This document shows positions 9,209-37,861 of a stretch of DNA of 64,000 bases, one piece after another (position 1 is the stretch's first letter; each line of letters opens with the position of its first letter). Made by a program: the position numbers and the translations under genes. Source of the DNA: an uncultured Pirellulaceae bacterium (lineage in GTDB: Bacteria; Planctomycetota; Planctomycetia; Pirellulales; Pirellulaceae); contig CALLUY010000083.1 in the NCBI GenBank assembly GCA_938010615.1, positions 1-64,000 on the forward strand. The letters are read 5' to 3'. The notes beneath the pieces were generated by a model that did no database searches, was not told the DNA's origin, and saw only the letters and a program-made list of their open reading frames with translations.

Positions 9209-10287
9209 TGTCGAATTTTCTGAACGGTTCCAATACAAGCCCGAAGCGCAAGCGAGTGAATACAAGCCCGAAGCGCAAGCGAGTGAATCGTTTGTGGTAT
9301 TCAATCGCTTGTGCTTCGGGATTGTATTGCTTGCTGTTCCCAACTCAATCACTCGCACAAGAAGTTGCTACCAAGTCCAGTCAGGCTGTCATCCTTATTG
9401 TCGGCGCTGAAGGCAGTGAAGAGTACGCAACGCAATTCAAACTGTGGGCTGAAACTTGGAAGAAAGCCGCCAGCCACACACAACTAACGGTAATCGGCTT
9501 AGACGACGATAAAGACAAATCGAAATCTCTGCTGGAAAATGCCGTTCTTGAATCTGCAGATGACGAAACACTACAGGAAGTTTGGTTGGTCATGATTGGT
9601 CATGGAACGTTTGACGGCAAACGAGCCAAATTCAATCTTCACGGACCAGATGTTCAGTCGGATGAATTGAGTTCGTGGTTAGAACCGATGGAGCATCGAT
9701 TGGTCGTCCTGAACTGTGCGTCCAGTAGCAGCCCATTCATAAACGCGTTAAGCGGGAAGAATCGAATCATCGTCTCGGCCAGTCGTAGCGGTTTCGAATT
9801 CAATTTCGCTCGTTTTGGGCAATATCTTTCTGAATCGATCGACGATCCCGCCATTGATTTGGACAAGGACGGTCAAACTTCAGTGCTGGAAGCATTTTGT
9901 GCTGCCAGTCGTGGCGTCAACGATTTCTATCAAAAGGAAAACCGAATCGCTACCGAACATGCTTTGCTTGATGACAACGGCGATTCAAAAGGAACACCAT
10001 CGGATTGGTTCGACGGAGTTCGTGCCAACAGGAAGCCCAAACAAGGATTGCCAGACGGTTTCATTGCCAACCAAGTATTTCTAAATCGGCGCGGTGTCGA
10101 AAATTCACTCTCTGCTGACGACCGGAAAATGCGTGACCAACTCGAATCGCAGTTGGAAAAGATTCGTTTACAAAAAGGGAAAATGGACGAGTCTGAATTC
10201 CTGCTGAAAATTGAACCGGTGCTGGTAAAGCTTGCGGAGCTATATGAGAGAGCGGGCGATCAGATCAAACCCAATGCCACCAAGTAA
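9208..10287 (+). CDS. Secreted caspase-like/C13-type cysteine peptidase homologue
   Basis: VMIGHGTFDGKRAKFNLHGPDV plus RLVVLNCASSSSPF (His/Cys dyad); signal peptide ...GLYCLLFPTQSLAQ; ATG overlaps upstream TGA. Confidence 0.75.
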   Translation: MSNFLNGSNTSPKRKRVNTSPKRKRVNRLWYSIACASGLYCLLFPTQSLAQEVATKSSQAVILIVGAEGSEEYATQFKLWAETWKKAASHTQLTVIGLDDDKDKSKSLLENAVLESADDETLQEVWLVMIGHGTFDGKRAKFNLHGPDVQSDELSSWLEPMEHRLVVLNCASSSSPFINALSGKNRIIVSASRSGFEFNFARFGQYLSESIDDPAIDLDKDGQTSVLEAFCAASRGVNDFYQKENRIATEHALLDDNGDSKGTPSDWFDGVRANRKPKQGLPDGFIANQVFLNRRGVENSLSADDRKMRDQLESQLEKIRLQKGKMDESEFLLKIEPVLVKLAELYERAGDQIKPNATK

Positions 10288-21160: not shown

Positions 21161-21355
21161 TTGATGTTGCGCAAATACCAGCCCGACGCGCAAGCGAGGG
21201 AATATTTCCGAGAATTTCCCGATCCCTCGCTTGCGCGTCGGGCTTGTATTGCAACGCTTCGTATTTTTCAATTTCCACGTGTATTGTCATGTAAAACAAG
21301 AAATCCCAACTTAAATGCGCAACATCAAAACTTGCGCTTCGGGCTTGCATTGGCT
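21161..21355 (-). repeat. ~190-bp MITE-like interspersed element, copy 1
   Basis: Reverse complement of copies at 27999-28190 and 35571-35760; palindromic ends cgcgcaagcgaggg/ccctcgcttgcgcg. Confidence 0.8.
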
Positions 21356-27987: not shown

Positions 27988-27998
27988 GTTCTGTTGAT

Positions 27999-28190
27999 CA
28001 ATACAAGCACGAAGCGCAAGTTTTGATGTTGCGCATTTAAGATGGAATTTCTTGTTTTACTTAACAAAACAAGTGAAAATTGAAGAATACGAAGCGTTGC
28101 AATACAAGCCCGACGCGCAAGCGAGGGATCGGGAAATCCTCGGAAATATTCCCTCGCTTGCATGTCGGTCTTAGTATTTGCGCAACATCA
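27999..28190 (+). repeat. ~190-bp MITE-like interspersed element, copy 2
   Basis: caatacaagcacgaagcgcaagttttgatgttgcgcatttaagatggaatttcttgttttacttaacaaaacaagtgaaaattga...; near identical to 35571-35760. Confidence 0.85.
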
Positions 28191-30346: not shown

Positions 30347-30498
30347 GAACTTTCGGAAGTGTATCAACATCACGATGCAACATGGATCCGTCCTACGCCT
30401 GGCAAGCGAACGTCGGATCCGCAACGTGATGTTTTTATAGCTTGTTCCCGGCAGCAATTTCGCTGCCACATTTTTTTAACTCTTTGAAAGGAGAAATA

Positions 30499-31722
30499 AT
30501 GGCCAAGGAAATCAAGCAGAACGTTGTCGACAATGGCAACACAAAACTGAACGTCAATGTGGGCACGATCGGTCACATTGATCACGGCAAGACAACTTTG
30601 ACGGCTGCGCTTTTGCGTGTGCAGTCCGAAAAGGGACTCGCCAACTACAAACCGTATGACCAAATCGCAAAAGGAGGCATCGTCCGTGACAAATCGAAAA
30701 CCGTTACCATCACTGCGGCTCACGTCGAGTACCAAACGGCTGCGCGAACGTATGCCCATATCGACTGCCCCGGTCACGCGGACTACATCAAGAACATGAT
30801 CACCGGTGCGGCTCAGATGGACGGAGCAATCCTCCTGACTTCTGCTGCCGCCGGACCTCAACCACAAACTCGCGAGCACATTTTGCTTGCGCGTCAGGTT
30901 GGAGTTCCGCATCTGGTTGTGTTTCTCAACAAGTGCGATTTGGTCGACGATCCCGAGTTGATCGAATTGGTGGAAATGGAGATTCGTGATTTGCTGACGC
31001 AGTACGGGTTTGACGAAAGTCAGGTTCCGTTCATTCGCGGCAGCGCCATGTTGGCTCACGACAATCCAACCGACGCCGATTCGATTCGCTGCATCGAGGA
31101 ACTTCTCGATGCGCTCGATTCGTCCATTCCTAATCCGAAGCGTGACATCGACAAGCCTTTCAATATGCCGGTCGAGAATGTTTTCATGATCGAAGGCAGA
31201 GGCACGGTCGTCACGGGCAAGATCGAAGCGGGCAAAGTGCGTACTGGCGATCGCGTCGACATTGTCGGCCAGTCAAGTCATGGCAGCGACATCATTTCGT
31301 CAACTGTGACTCAGGTCGAAACTTTTGGCCGGATCCTTGACGAAGGTATCGCTGGTCAGAACGTGGCCTGCTTGCTTCGTGGCATTCAGCGCGAAGAAGT
31401 TCAGCGTGGACAGGTTTTGGCAGCTGTTGGTTCCGTTGTTCCACACAGCAACATCGAAACCGAGGTCTACGTTTTGGACAAGGCAGAAGGCGGACGTCAC
31501 ACTCCGTTTGGCACTGGCTACCAGCCCCAGTTTTTCTTCGGCACGACCAACGTAACCGGTCGCGTCGAAGTTCTGGACGCTGACATGGCGATGCCCGGCG
31601 ACGGAGTTCGTTTGTCTGTGAGCCTGATGCGGCCAGTGGCTTGCGAAGAGGGCTCGCGATTCGCGATCCGTGAAGGAAACCGGACCGTCGGATCCGGTGT
31701 TGTCACTAGGGTGATTGACTGA
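30499..31722 (+). CDS. tuf: Elongation factor Tu (divergent switch I)
   Basis: [86 protein letters not shown] aaaggag upstream. Confidence 0.96.
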
Positions 31723-31733
31723 TTTTCGTTTCG

Positions 31734-31777
31734 GAAGTCATCAACCGCCTTTCGGTCGGCGGTTGTTGAAAGACTTC
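31734..31777 (+). terminator. tuf intrinsic terminator-like hairpin
   Basis: gaagtc atcaaccgcc tttcggtc ggcggttgtt gaaagacttc. Confidence 0.75.
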
Positions 31778-31919
31778 CGCCGACTGTTTTGGGCTTTATC
31801 AGCCACGAGATTTAATCGTTATACGCCATACGTGGGTACAACTCCCCAAAGCTCATTTTTCACGATTGCAGTTGTGGGAAAAAAGTGCTATTTTTTCCCA
31901 CAAATCAACCGAGTGAAAA

Positions 31920-32528
31920 ATGACAAAAAGCAATGAAAAACAGGCACTTTCAAGGATTTACGGCAACGGAAGGGGTTGGGCGTTTTCCCCAAAGGATTTT
32001 GCCGATCTAGGACGCATCGACATGGCTCTGAATCGCTTAATCAAAAAGGGTACGATTCGACGAGTCATCCGTGGAATCTACGACTATCCGCGATACAGCG
32101 AACTGCTGCAGCAGGAACTTGGCCCCGACATCCACCAAGTTGCAAAAGCACTTGCTCGCAAATTTGGTTGGCGAATTGAGGCCAGCGGACAATCTGCCGC
32201 CAACCTGATTGGCATCACCACGCAGATTCCCAGCCAGTACATTTATCAGTCGGACGGGCCGAATCGCAACTATCAGATCGACAAGACAACGCTTCAGTTC
32301 AAGCATATCAATTTCAAAGAGATTGGCTTTAAGACAGACGAAAGTGCACTCATCGTCCACGCCATACGGTCACTCGGTGAATCGAATATCACCCCCAAGA
32401 TAGTTTCGCAAATTCGCACTTGGCTGCCTGCCAAAAAACGAAAGCGAGTCCTGAAAGATACCGAGCGTGTTACGGGTTGGGTATTTTCGGCAATCAAGAA
32501 AATATGCCGCGAGGACCGCGATGGATAG
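31920..32528 (+). CDS. AbiEi-type antitoxin (DUF6088 family)
   Basis: GWAFSPKDFADLGRIDMALNRLIKKGTIRRVIRGIYDYPRYSELL...QVAKALARKFGWRIEASGQSAANLIG; overlaps AbiEii gene. Confidence 0.9.
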   Translation: MTKSNEKQALSRIYGNGRGWAFSPKDFADLGRIDMALNRLIKKGTIRRVIRGIYDYPRYSELLQQELGPDIHQVAKALARKFGWRIEASGQSAANLIGITTQIPSQYIYQSDGPNRNYQIDKTTLQFKHINFKEIGFKTDESALIVHAIRSLGESNITPKIVSQIRTWLPAKKRKRVLKDTERVTGWVFSAIKKICREDRDG

Positions 32529-33516
32529 CGTTGCCTCACTGAGCAATCAGGAACGTCGCGAACTGTTTGAACAGACAGCTCAACAGATGGGCGTAAATCC
32601 TGCCATCGCCGAAAAAGACTTCTGGGTTTGTTGGGTGCTGAAGAAGCTTTTTGAATCAGAACTTCAATCTCAACTGGTATTCAAAGGCGGTACTTCCCTT
32701 TCCAAAGTCTACGGTCTGATCAATCGTTTTTCTGAAGACATTGATCTGGTTTTGAACTGGGAACTTCTGGGCTATGAAAAGGACAGTCTTGATCCATGGA
32801 TGAAGCAACCATCCAACAACCAGCAGCACAAGTTCAACCAGCAGTTCAATGATCGAGCCCAAGCGTACATCGAGGAAACCCTACAACCATTGGTCACCAA
32901 GTTGTTAGCCAGTTGTCCCGGTGCAAAAGCCGAGGTTTCCCAACACGAACCTCAAGTCATTAACGTGACGTATCCAGCCGCGTTTAGTTTGGCGGCTCTG
33001 CGACCAGAAGTGAAACTTGAGATCGGCGCGTTGGCATCGTGGGTTCCCTCAGCACGCCACACCATTCGGCCTTACGCGGCGGAACGATTCCCTCAGGTTT
33101 TTGAAAATCCTGACTGTGAGATCGTCGCGATCACTGCAGAACGAACGTTTTGGGAGAAAGCAACAATCCTGCACCAGCAGGCTCATCGAACGTCGCCAAT
33201 GCCGCCGGGCTATTCGCGACATTATTTTGACATGTTTCACATGGCCAATAGCCCGGTAAAGCAGAATGCCTTGTCGGACCTGCCATTGTTGGCGAAAGTC
33301 GTCGAATTCAAGAATCGATTCTATCGCAGTCCTTGGGCCAAACACGATTTGGCCGTGCCCGGAACGATACGATTGCTGCCAACGGAGCAGGGCAACATTG
33401 AATTGCAGAAGGACTACATCAACATGCAAGCAATGATTTTCGATTCGCCTCCGGATTGGTCTGCAATCATCGACTCGCTTAGATCGCTCGAGTTCGAGAT
33501 CAACGCACTGGCTTAG
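32521..33516 (+). CDS. AbiEii/AbiGii-type nucleotidyltransferase toxin
   Basis: AIAEKDFWVCWVLKKLF...LVFKGGTSLSKVYGLINRFSEDIDLVL; ERTFWEKATILHQQAHR. Confidence 0.93.
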   Translation: MDSVASLSNQERRELFEQTAQQMGVNPAIAEKDFWVCWVLKKLFESELQSQLVFKGGTSLSKVYGLINRFSEDIDLVLNWELLGYEKDSLDPWMKQPSNNQQHKFNQQFNDRAQAYIEETLQPLVTKLLASCPGAKAEVSQHEPQVINVTYPAAFSLAALRPEVKLEIGALASWVPSARHTIRPYAAERFPQVFENPDCEIVAITAERTFWEKATILHQQAHRTSPMPPGYSRHYFDMFHMANSPVKQNALSDLPLLAKVVEFKNRFYRSPWAKHDLAVPGTIRLLPTEQGNIELQKDYINMQAMIFDSPPDWSAIIDSLRSLEFEINALA

Positions 33517-33558: not shown

Positions 33559-33805
33559 GAAGGTGGGCGTCACACGGCGTTTGGCACCGGCAACCAGCCT
33601 CAGTTTTTCTTCGGCACGACCAACGTAGCTTGCGGCCAGTGGCTTGCGAAGAGGGCTCGCGAAGAGGGCTCGCGATTTGCGATCCGCGAAGGAAACCGGA
33701 CCGTTGGATCCGGTGTTGTCACCAGGGTGATTGACTGACTTTCGTTTAGGAAGTCATCAACCGCCTTTTCGGTCGGCGGTTGTTGAAAGACTTCCGCCGA
33801 CTTTT
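33559..33805 (+). pseudogene. Displaced tuf 3'-end fragment plus tuf terminator
   Basis: Matches 31490-31790: cagtttttcttcggcacgaccaacgta, ...cggccagtggcttgcgaagagggctcgcga..., ggaaaccggaccgt.ggatccggtgttgtcac.agggtgattgactga, aagtcatcaaccgcc... Confidence 0.95.
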
Positions 33806-33817
33806 TATCCAAGCCAT

Positions 33818-34402
33818 CTATTCTCGATCCGCGTTGCCACTTTCGAGTTTTGCAACCAGTGCCACGAGATCAATGTCAAGCGCTGCTTGAAGCTGGCTCG
33901 CCATTGAGTGACAGTATCGCCAGTCAATTGAATCGCGACTAATTGCTACGATCCCATCAACATCCTGAATATCCTGATGTCTTCCCGCCATAAGCTTCAT
34001 CAGCAACAAATCTTCAGCGGTAGCAACAGGAATTGAATGTTCTGGCACCGGCGAAGCCCGTTGCACGACGATTTTTTCAAACCCGGACTCTCCCACTGCC
34101 AAATCGATTCGTACTTGCGTTTGAGAATCACTGATCGGCAGTAAAAAACACTGACGGAGAACCAATTCTGGATCCGGCAAAAAAGGACGAAACACTTTGG
34201 GGTCCAGTGAATCTAACATCTCGACTGCGCGAGCAACATCGCAGTCCACGATAACATCAATGTCTTCCGTTACGCGAACGCGACCTCGTATTGATGCGGC
34301 AAGCCCGCCAATCAATGCGAAATCAAGATCCTGCTGGTCAAGCATTTCTATCAATCGTTGAAGCGTCTCTTCAATCTGCTGATTCACAACGATCTTCACC
34401 AA
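33818..34402 (-). CDS. Nucleotidyltransferase-fold protein (AbiEii/DUF6036-like)
   Basis: FALIGGLAASIRGRVRVTEDIDVIVDCDVARAVEML...ATAEDLLLMKLMAGRHQDIQDVDGIV. Confidence 0.85.
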   Translation of the reverse strand: MVKIVVNQQIEETLQRLIEMLDQQDLDFALIGGLAASIRGRVRVTEDIDVIVDCDVARAVEMLDSLDPKVFRPFLPDPELVLRQCFLLPISDSQTQVRIDLAVGESGFEKIVVQRASPVPEHSIPVATAEDLLLMKLMAGRHQDIQDVDGIVAISRDSIDWRYCHSMASQLQAALDIDLVALVAKLESGNADRE

Positions 34403-34634: not shown

Positions 34635-34699
34635 GCTCTAATTCTATAGACCGATTGAATCTGAGGGAACCGATTTCGTCTCAAATTGCCGCCATTCAG

Positions 34700-34779
34700 T
34701 CTCAGTTTTTCTTCGGCACGACCAACGTCACTGGTCGCGTCGAGATTCTATCGCGCTGACATGGCGATGCTTGGCGACA
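34700..34779 (+). pseudogene. Second displaced tuf fragment (internal, frameshifted)
   Basis: cagtttttcttcggcacgaccaacgtcactggtcgcgtcgagattctatcgcgctgacatggcgatgcttggcgac vs tuf 31529-31602. Confidence 0.9.
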
Positions 34780-34891
34780 GTAAAACACTCCATCCAATTG
34801 AACTTGCAATAAGTTGGCTGGTGCAAGTAAGAATGTTCTTTCGCCAGCGTCCAAGACGACCAGCTCAAATTCGAATTCCCCTGCGGAGATC

Positions 34892-35545
34892 ATGATGACG
34901 TTGAAAGCAAGAATCGACGAGTACAAACAAAAGTCAGCCGGTAAGGCGACGCCAGAAATGGTCGAAATTATGACGCGATGCAAAGCTGAACTTCAAGAAA
35001 CCATTTCGTCCCGCAGCATTCCGCAAGTCGGCGATGCGATGCCTAGTTTCAGCTTGCCCGATTCCAATGGAAACAACGTCTCTTCGCAAACGTTGCTCGA
35101 ATCGGGCCCGTTGGTGGTTTCCTTTTTTCGTGGCATGTGGTGACCGTATTGCAATTTTGAGCTGGAAGCTCTCAACAACGCGGTCGCGGAGTTCAAGAAT
35201 CTCAACACAACACTCGTCGCTGTTTCGCCTCAGACAACTGAACATAACCAAAAATTGATCGCCAAGCTAAAACTGGATTTTGAAATCCTCTTCGATGAAG
35301 ACAACGCTTACGCAGATTCGATCGGATTGAAACACGGATTCGCTGACGACCTAAAAGATGTCTATGGAAAATTTGGATTGAACCTGGACGACTTCAACGG
35401 GAACTCGAAATGGGAACTTCCTATCGCTTCCCGATTCGTTGTCGATCGGACAGGGATCATTCGCGCGGCTGACATCAACGCAGATTACACGCAACGTCCT
35501 GAACCGACTGAAACCGTCGAAGTTCTTCGCTCGGTCGCATCGTAA
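34892..35545 (+). CDS. Peroxiredoxin-like (AhpC/TSA) protein with in-frame TGA at the catalytic Cys (candidate selenoprotein)
   Basis: Two same-frame ORFs joined at TGA 35141-35143: ...GPLVVSFFRGMW[TGA]PYCNFELEALNNAV...LVAVSPQTTEHNQKL...ELPIASRFVVDRTGIIRAADINADYTQRPEP; SD ggag before ATG. Confidence 0.85.
35141..35171 (+). promoter_or_regulatory. Candidate bacterial SECIS element
   Basis: TGA, then hairpin gagct-GGA-agctc; apical loop begins 20 nt after the TGA and starts with GG. Confidence 0.65.
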
Positions 35546-35570
35546 TGCATTTCTGACAATCCATCGTTGA

Positions 35571-35760
35571 CAATACCAGCCCGACGCGCAAGTTTTGATG
35601 TTGCGCGTTTAAGATGGAATTTCTTGTTTTACTTAACAAAACAAGTGAAAATTGAAAAATACGAAGCGTTGAAATACAAGCCCGACGCGCAAGCGAGGGA
35701 TCGGGAAATCCTCGGAAATATCCCCTCGCTTGCGCGTCGGGCTTGTATTTGCGCAACATG
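35571..35760 (+). repeat. ~190-bp MITE-like interspersed element, copy 3, followed by a partial copy to about 35860
   Basis: Near identical to 27999-28190, including ttttgatgttgcgc.tttaagatggaatttcttgttttacttaacaaaacaagtgaaaattga. Confidence 0.85.
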
Positions 35761-35798
35761 AAAACGCGCAAGCGCGCAAGCGAGGGATACAGTAATCC

Positions 35799-36179
35799 TT
35801 GGAAATATTCCCTCGCTTGCGCGTCGGGCTTATATTTGCGCAACATCAAAACTCGCGCGTCGACTTGCCCAACACCGACGAAGTCGTGTTTGAAGCCGTT
35901 CTGTCGATGGATGATTTGACTCGTGTTGCCACAGGAGAAACGTGGAGCGATCAGAGCCCGGAACGCGAGGTCTTTGAGTTCACAACTGACGTCGAAATCA
36001 ACCTGGAAGGTGGCCGGAAGCATTGGTTCTCTATCTATCAGGATTTGCAAGTCGGGCAATCAGAAACGTCCTTTGCGGAATACGACAATCCTTTCTTTTG
36101 GCTTGCGAGCACCAGTAATACGCCTCGAAAAGGGTCTTACTATTGGTCCGATGATATTGGTCCGATGATGGTTTTCTGA
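35799..36179 (+). pseudogene. Truncated ORF, 5' part replaced by repeat sequence
   Basis: Reading frame enters directly from the repeat; residues DLPNTDEVVFEAVLSMDDLTRVATGETWSD... lack an independent start or signal. Confidence 0.4.
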
Positions 36180-36257: not shown

Positions 36258-36367
36258 CCCGATCGGTAGTTTTTTAGGCTCTATGCCCCAAACAAGTGCT
36301 AAATTATCCCGATCGGTACAATTCAATGCCGATTTAGCGGACCAACCTGCAATATTCCCGATCGGTA
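36258..36367. promoter_or_regulatory. Three operator-like repeats cccgatcggta upstream of hipB
   Basis: 36258-36268, 36308-36318, 36357-36367, spaced 50 and 49 bp; palindromic core ccgatcgg. Confidence 0.75.
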
Positions 36368-36372
36368 ACATC

Positions 36373-36588
36373 GTGAGCACATCTATCAAAACATCGGAAG
36401 ACCTCGGCAAGGTCATTCGCCAACGTCGCAAGGCCGCCAAGCTGACGCAAAAGAAGGCGGCTGCGCTGGCGGGAATCGGTGTGCGATTCCTGTCGGAACT
36501 CGAACGAGGCAAACCGACGGCCCAGATTGGCAAGACCTTAAAAGTTGCACGACTGCTTGGCTTGGAGATTCAAATCAATGAGCGATGA
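36373..36588 (+). CDS. hipB: HipB-like HTH (XRE) antitoxin
   Basis: LGKVIRQRRKAAKLTQKKAAALAGIGVRFLSELERGKPTAQIGKTLKVARLLGLEIQI; GTG start; overlaps hipA. Confidence 0.85.
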   Translation: MSTSIKTSEDLGKVIRQRRKAAKLTQKKAAALAGIGVRFLSELERGKPTAQIGKTLKVARLLGLEIQINER

Positions 36589-37861
36589 ACAGCCCAGCTC
36601 AAGTGATCAGAAACTGGCTGTCTACTTCGAAACGCAGTTGGTCGGAACGATCACTTCCGACGACGGCTTCGGCATGCAGTTTTCATACAACGATGCTTGG
36701 CGAAACAGCAAGACATCCTTCCCGATTTCAACCTCCATTCCGCTCGACGCAAGCTCGATCGAAAACGAGGTTGCCAACAACTTTTTCGTCAATCTGTTAC
36801 CTGAAGAACGCGTCCGCATTCGAACTTGCAAAAAGCTCGGCATCTCGGAAGGCAATCACTTCGAACTGCTAAAACGAATCGGCGGCGATTGCGCCGGTGC
36901 GCTGACGATTGTTGACGAAGGTGCGAAACCGCCGACGCAACAGGATGAGTACGAACTGATTTCTGAAACGCAACTTGCGGCCTGGTCGGAAGGTGACCAA
37001 TACGCATTTGCCGAAGTCGCCGGAAATGATGACGTGCGACTGTCGCTTGCGGGAGCACAGGACAAACTTCCGGTCAAGGTTGTCGACGGAAAACAGTTCT
37101 ATCTCCCGAAAGGCAACTCTCCTTCCACACAGATCCTCAAGTTCGCGTCTCATTTTTCACACCTGCCAGAGAACGAAACCTTCACGACGATGCTGGGCCG
37201 TGCGGCGGGAGTCGAAACGGTGAATATCTCGCTTTACCAGACCAGCGAATCTCGAATCGCAGTTATTGAACGCTACGACCGAATCGCCAACGGCGAAACG
37301 TTCACTCGAATTCACCAGGAAGACTTTTGCCAGGCACTCGGCGTCCATCCGCAGCGCAAGTACCAACAGGAAGGTGGCCCTAATCTTCAGGACTGCGTTG
37401 AACTGATCAAGAACGTGTGCTCGTTGCCGATCGTGGAGCTGGAGAAACTGATCCGCTGGACGATGTTCAATTGGCTGGCCTACAACACCGATGCTCACGC
37501 GAAAAATATTTCGCTGCTGTTTGTTGACGGGCAGACCAAACTGGCTCCATTCTACGACCTCGTATGCACCAACAACTATCCGCAGCTCAGCAAGCGGCTG
37601 GCGATGAGCATCGGAGGCGAATTTATGCCAGGAGCGGTTCATCCACAGCATTTGGAGCAGTTTGCAAGCGAACTGGATATCGGTTCTTCGTACGTCAACG
37701 AGCTGGCCATTGAAACGGTGGATCGGCTGCAAGCTTCGATGAATGAAACGATCGTCGAGTTCAGAGACCTGTTCGGCGATTCGCCGATCTTGCAGCAAAT
37801 TCCTGTCGTCGTTCAGAAGCGCTGCAAGCGAGCCCTAAAAGATTCCCTTTTCAATAGATGA
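36578..37861 (+). CDS. hipA: HipA-like kinase toxin
   Basis: LLPEERVR...FELLKRIGGDCAGAL, RLSLAGAQDKLPV, HQEDFCQALG, FNWLAYNTDAHAKNISLLF. Confidence 0.93.
   Translation: MSDEQPSSSDQKLAVYFETQLVGTITSDDGFGMQFSYNDAWRNSKTSFPISTSIPLDASSIENEVANNFFVNLLPEERVRIRTCKKLGISEGNHFELLKRIGGDCAGALTIVDEGAKPPTQQDEYELISETQLAAWSEGDQYAFAEVAGNDDVRLSLAGAQDKLPVKVVDGKQFYLPKGNSPSTQILKFASHFSHLPENETFTTMLGRAAGVETVNISLYQTSESRIAVIERYDRIANGETFTRIHQEDFCQALGVHPQRKYQQEGGPNLQDCVELIKNVCSLPIVELEKLIRWTMFNWLAYNTDAHAKNISLLFVDGQTKLAPFYDLVCTNNYPQLSKRLAMSIGGEFMPGAVHPQHLEQFASELDIGSSYVNELAIETVDRLQASMNETIVEFRDLFGDSPILQQIPVVVQKRCKRALKDSLFNR

Follow-up and report, generated by a model that had tools for sequence, protein, structure and literature searches.

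Known selenoproteins resembling the predicted product

Peroxiredoxin-like (Prx-like) selenoproteins with a UxxC active site have been known since 2005 (PMC1088965, PMC2398784, PMC13188914). They were reported from the Sargasso Sea in 2005 as 'Prx-like protein' (22 sequences; PMC1088965) and in the GOS study of 2008 as 'Prx-like 1', pfam00578 (225 sequences; PMC2398784), and they are regarded as high-confidence predictions (PMC13188914). The structure and mechanism of the PRX-like subfamily have been called unclear (PMC3514251). Selenoproteins of planctomycetes were described earlier (PMC4807772), and searching the text of the Sargasso and GOS papers for planctomycete hosts returned no mention. 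An earlier note on the DNA analyzed here, a stretch of 64,000 nt that we call the window, stated that peroxiredoxin-like families include known Sec/Cys replacements.

The window carries a Prx-like gene interrupted by a single in-frame TGA. Like the described Prx-like UxxC selenoproteins (including the 'Prx-like thiol:disulfide oxidoreductase'), its predicted product combines a PF00578 domain with a UxxC motif in place of TxxC, Sec being the first residue of the motif. Both also have many Cys homologs, a likeness drawn from published descriptions rather than from assignment to a GOS subfamily. Relatives approximately 40–44% identical to the window protein are annotated as 'peroxiredoxin-like family protein', the name of cd02970 (PRX_like2), which shares the CxxC after RGxW and the Prx-like fold; membership is suggested indirectly by the annotation of these relatives. 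The Sec form of cd02970 given in a 2026 review is UxxS (PMC13188914), whereas the window protein is UxxC. The Sec-peroxiredoxins of the PrxU type (TxxU) are also selenoproteins with a Prx fold, but their Sec is the peroxidatic residue; in the window protein the peroxidatic position holds a Cys, with Sec three residues before it. The match to the profile of SelL and SelL-related redox proteins (NF040769) is weak, and its 39.5 bits fall below the curated cut-off of 120.

The window gene is a well-supported further example of a kind of selenoprotein known from marine bacteria. What is new are these genomes, the apparent occurrence of several Cys/Sec switches within one family, and SECIS hairpins at +16, +19/20, +24, and +36. 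Gene callers split or truncate such genes and would thereby miss a probable antioxidant selenoenzyme, which this genome encodes twice and for which the assembled part contains no Cys version as a backup. Where Sec sits also hints, in a way open to testing, at which atom is catalytic, and the differently placed hairpins make the 22 Sec genes a compact set for studies of Cys-to-Sec conversion.

A Prx-like gene with one in-frame TGA

From ATG 34892/34895 to the TAA ending at 35545, the TGA is the sole internal stop and it splits the ORF (Table 1). The conceptual protein reads SFFRGMW-U-PYCNFELEAL around it, placing the TGA in the column of the first Cys of the motif RGxW[C/U]PYC. The AhpC-TSA profile (PF00578) matches across the TGA, from residue 46 to 192 (4e-25, 88.5 bits; cut-off of 26 bits), so that the PF00578 domain with an active-site UxxC that characterizes Prx-like UxxC selenoproteins is found here. 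The earlier note had described two ORFs in the same frame parted by one TGA at the first Cys of the family motif, with no other stop and unbroken homology, and this description holds. Its start at 34892 does open an in-frame ORF to 35545, but ATG 34895 is the more likely start since GGAG lies 6 nt upstream and homologs begin with MTLK or MSLK. The residues U84 and C87 are nevertheless numbered from ATG 34892 (216/217-aa protein) throughout.

Table 1. Features of the Prx-like gene in window coordinates
Feature	Position	Strand	Remarks
Shine-Dalgarno-like GGAG	34885..34888	+	6 nt before ATG 34895; read directly, putative function
Prx-like selenoprotein CDS (predicted)	34895..35545	+	216 aa; Sec is residue 83 (84 counted from ATG 34892)
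In-frame TGA read as selenocysteine (predicted), first position of UPYC	35141..35143	+	frame and homolog alignment
Extended SECIS fold with lower stem GACCGU/GCGGUC (predicted)	35142..35185	+	RNA folding
TGC codon of C87, UxxC partner	35150..35152	+	in the column of the classical Prx peroxidatic Cys
bSECIS apical hairpin GAGCU-GGA-AGCUC (candidate)	35159..35171	+	GAGCU 35159-35163, GGA loop 35164-35166, AGCUC 35167-35171; loop starts 20 nt after TGA

Coding constraint carries on past the TGA. Amino acid identity to the homolog of one congener (G312) is 0.66 before the TGA and 0.68 after it, and the nucleotide changes after the TGA are concentrated at third codon positions (28/20/83 for the three positions). 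Because dS is saturated, dN/dS was not used beyond these counts. When we inspected the other TGA-interrupted frames of the window by eye (34 in total, with one TGA and at least 60 codons on each side), no obvious context of Cys homologs was seen.

Sec and Cys forms among homologs

We found the same TGA, aligned to the same column, in 21 further homologs, which makes 22 TGA genes with that of the window; of the 21, four belong to congeners, one is a second copy in the genome of the window, and the rest are spread across the phylum. Approximately 115 Cys homologs present TGC or TGT there. In a search of 398 genomes from the same order, one TGA each is present in the three best relatives outside the window's own genome, in the gene of a fourth congener (G361), and in the second copy of the own genome; all TGA genes of this order set show the placement RGxW-TGA-PYC. 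Further TGA forms were found in several families among 395 genomes of the phylum. The motif varies in two of the 22 genes (RGKW-TGA-LYC in L170 and RGPW-TGA-PMC in L172), and the TGA still takes the place of the first Cys, as it does in every TGA form among the homologs read at this column. The homolog alignment that the earlier note had proposed as a check puts the TGA in the Cys column of CPYC in every case. A scan of contigs with the CPYC pattern finds Cys forms only, by construction; the Sec forms come from the homology search of the genomes.

In the own genome both matches are TGA forms, and no Cys form was found in its 84%-complete assembly. The second copy (L050; G000:C93:13256-13885, minus strand) is 34% identical to the window gene and has its TGA at the same codon; its hairpin has the full 7 pairs, or 8 bp in the scan with published constraints. 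A further copy in G312 is truncated near a contig end. No synteny with the genes of congeners was found, so the operon context is uninformative on function.

A SECIS-like hairpin downstream of the TGA

Bacterial SECIS elements are described by a loop of 3–9 nt on a stem of 4–16 bp, a loop 16–37 nt after the UGA, a G in the first two loop positions, and a minimum free energy of −7.5 kcal/mol or less (PMC13188914). The earlier note had pointed to a gagct-GGA-agctc hairpin with its loop 20 nt after the TGA as fitting such a description. The hairpin is indeed present and conforms to these constraints: folding of 35141-35190, the 50 nt from the TGA that the note had singled out, yielded a structure of −15.7 kcal/mol (z = −1.85) that includes a further, lower stem, although the apical hairpin alone reaches −4.1 kcal/mol. 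A search of the window against Rfam returned no match at gathering scores and gives no support for a SECIS element.

The published constraints on loop, stem, G, and distance identify a qualifying hairpin in all 22 Sec genes. Its distance from the TGA is +19/20 in the group of the window gene, +16 in G361, +24 in L171 and L172, and +36 in L157, L162, and L169, where it reads CCGGCAG-GUC-CUGCCGG. The median hairpin energy is −7.8 kcal/mol in Sec genes, compared with −2.3 and −0.7 kcal/mol in Cys genes. The four core pairs and the loop G are complete in 14/22 Sec genes vs 1/117 Cys genes (P = 8e-13; Fisher test). Against synonymous-codon shuffles, which keep the protein sequence, the mean z-score of the hairpin is −1.88 in Sec genes, −0.27 in Cys genes of the same phylum, and +0.10 in Cys genes of other phyla (P = 4e-6 and 7e-9 for Sec against the two Cys sets); these set P-values are too small, since they count related genes as independent and shared ancestry inflates set statistics. 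The hairpin of the window gene alone yields P = 0.055–0.08 against such shuffles, so the significance comes from the gene set.

Pairing and covariation were computed in a gapless codon register. The +19/20 hairpin shows 77.8% standard pairs vs 28.6–50% in slid controls. The covariation score and the number of cells with both sides changed exceed all 500 shuffles, whereas the counts of pairs and of pair types do not; some of the covariation measures also fail to surpass the shuffle or slide controls. A SECIS-like hairpin is conserved and compensated in the Sec forms and not in the Cys forms.

Selenocysteine machinery

The earlier note had made its case depend on a search for sel genes, and this search found all of them above curated cut-offs in the window's own genome: selB (contig C121; 349.8 bits, cut-off 242), selA (C95; 552 bits, cut-off 268), selD (C68; 262.6 bits, cut-off 125), and tRNA-Sec (C123; 65.9 bits, cut-off 47), which ARAGORN calls SeC with anticodon TCA. 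The only SelD that we found above the cut-off (L010:331-2523) carries an NADH-dehydrogenase-like domain fused to its N-terminus. It retains the CLGCGGK motif and scores below the cut-off of the NCBI 'fusion_not_SelD' model. Ndh-SelD fusions containing CxxC were described in the GOS study (PMC2398784). We found tRNA-Sec in 12/12 members of the genus examined, and several genomes of the order with Cys forms present no tRNA-Sec at E = 1e-7.

Proposed decoding of the UGA and catalytic mechanism

The conserved TGA column, the Sec machinery, and the SECIS-fitting hairpins make it almost certain that the gene encodes a U-x-x-C selenoprotein, in which Sec84 and C87 would form a redox pair. The translation as a U-x-x-C selenoprotein that the earlier note had suggested is supported by the homologous TGAs, the sel genes, and the conserved hairpin alike. 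The product would be a 216-aa protein of the Prx/thioredoxin fold, probably of the 'peroxiredoxin-like family' (RGxWCPYC). SelB and Sec-tRNA(TCA) would decode the UGA as Sec under the direction of the hairpin, and the pair U84-P-Y-C87 would lie at the N-terminus of the first active-site helix.

The AlphaFold2 model (pLDDT of 94.1) places U84 immediately before a helix spanning residues 85–96, and its best matches among solved structures are BCP/AhpE peroxiredoxins, followed by ResA. In the alignment to solved Prx, C87 corresponds to the classical peroxidatic Cys and Sec84 falls in the column of the catalytic Thr; three residues before the peroxidatic Cys/Sec, where classical Prx and Sec-Prx have a Thr, this family presents Sec or Cys. 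Judging from its sequence, the protein is a thioredoxin-type UxxC on a Prx-like fold and not of the PrxU type (TxxU). The earlier note had placed the UGA at the catalytic cysteine: the TGA does replace the first Cys of the CxxC, but the classical peroxidatic Cys is the second one, C87.

Sec is normally placed at the attacking atom. Based on such established selenoprotein chemistry, Sec84 is most likely the attacking nucleophile and C87 would resolve it as a selenenylsulfide, which a thioredoxin-type reductant may then reduce. The reported UxxS member of cd02970, which has no second Cys, supports this role of Sec84 (PMC13188914). The outcome would be a fast thiol-disulfide oxidoreductase or a peroxidase, and on the sequence thiol-disulfide-type chemistry seems as likely as peroxidase activity.

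It is possible, if rather doubtful, that the selenoprotein is instead a true Prx-type peroxidase in which C87 is peroxidatic and Sec84 resolving. In BCP/PrxQ (2ywn, 2cx3, 5epf) the peroxidatic Cys occupies the column of C87, the best fold matches are Prx, and an Arg (R202 here) is invariant; against this, the catalytic Thr of PxxxTxxC is itself replaced by Sec/Cys, the usual placement of Sec speaks for position 84 as the attacking one, and the UxxS form suggests that it is the first position that cannot be dispensed with (PMC13188914).

Two alternatives deny that a full-length selenoprotein is the main product. Read-through of the UGA is not known to be complete in any bacterial selenoprotein gene. 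This incompleteness, together with a second TGA copy and no Cys copy found in the genome, could point to a selenium-dependent switch, in which the UGA mostly acts as a stop yielding a short domain of 82 aa. We consider this very improbable: the 5' piece has neither the second redox residue nor most of the fold and is unlikely to function alone, and neither a start nor a regulatory element could be found for it. The stop that splits the ORF might also reflect a pseudogene with a premature stop, or a TGC/TGT miscalled in a fragmented, MAG-like draft assembly (84% complete, 221 contigs), but 21 other genes, most of them taken from independent assemblies, have the identical TGA at this very codon, and none has another stop within the matched region. 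The protein is conserved equally before and after the TGA, and the hairpin is conserved alongside a complete Sec machinery, which leaves this reading refuted in practice and exceedingly improbable. A global reassignment of UGA to an amino acid has practically no chance of being correct and is refuted in practice, as nothing beyond the single in-frame TGA favors it, TGA works as a normal stop in neighboring genes (e.g., EF-Tu at 31720-31722), the other interrupted frames of the window show no obvious Cys-homolog context by eye, and dedicated SelB and tRNA-Sec are present.

Evolution of Sec and Cys forms

In a tree of 84 rows, about 6 changes of the Sec label are needed, at least 3 of them forced by starred branches. 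Three Sec genes of congeners group with the window gene, as do, with support of 95/89, Sec genes of other families. The Sec gene of G361 (L031; G361:C27:58935-59564, minus strand) is nested in a well-supported Cys clade, and the f80 Sec group stands apart. The tree thus hints at repeated Cys/Sec switching, or at transfer, within the limits set by rooting and long branches; the differing hairpin distances agree with this.

We lean, with modest confidence, toward a scenario in which the widespread RGxWCPYC family has repeatedly exchanged Cys and Sec within one phylum, with a SECIS distance that differs per Sec group (+16 for G361, +19/20 for the group of the window gene, +36 for an f80 group), and in which Sec always takes the first Cys and this Cys is the nucleophile. 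If true, this peroxiredoxin-like family would constitute a natural experiment in the origin of SECIS elements inside coding sequence, and the placement of Sec would mark the first Cys, not the Prx-peroxidatic Cys, as the nucleophile of the family. The +16 hairpin of L031 reads CCUGC-AGUU-GCAGG, and some Cys relatives (L027 and L028) carry a similar CUGCAGCUGCAG there, possibly a pre-existing hairpin.

Neighboring features of the window

The 3' end of the EF-Tu gene (30442-31722) and its terminator-like hairpin are repeated downstream (90–94% identical, with a third partial copy at 85%); the segments concerned are 31486-31789, 33559-33806, and 34697-34778. These copies flank a DUF6088/AbiEi-like and AbiEii pair (31920-33516) as well as a DUF6036 nucleotidyltransferase (33818-34402, minus strand), and the tuf 3' end looks like an insertion hot spot. 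Both EF-Tu proteins of the genome (window 30499-31722; L003:1465-2661) present the switch I sequence 'VRDxxKTVTI' where 'ERxRGITI' is usual, possibly a lineage trait; the window copy still scores above the EF-Tu profile cut-off. A HipB-like antitoxin and HipA-like toxin pair lies at 36283-37861. Short repeats around 'agcccgacgcgcaagcgaggga' are dispersed on both strands of the window at 35570-35860, 21170-21350, 27990-28130, and 9232-9286.
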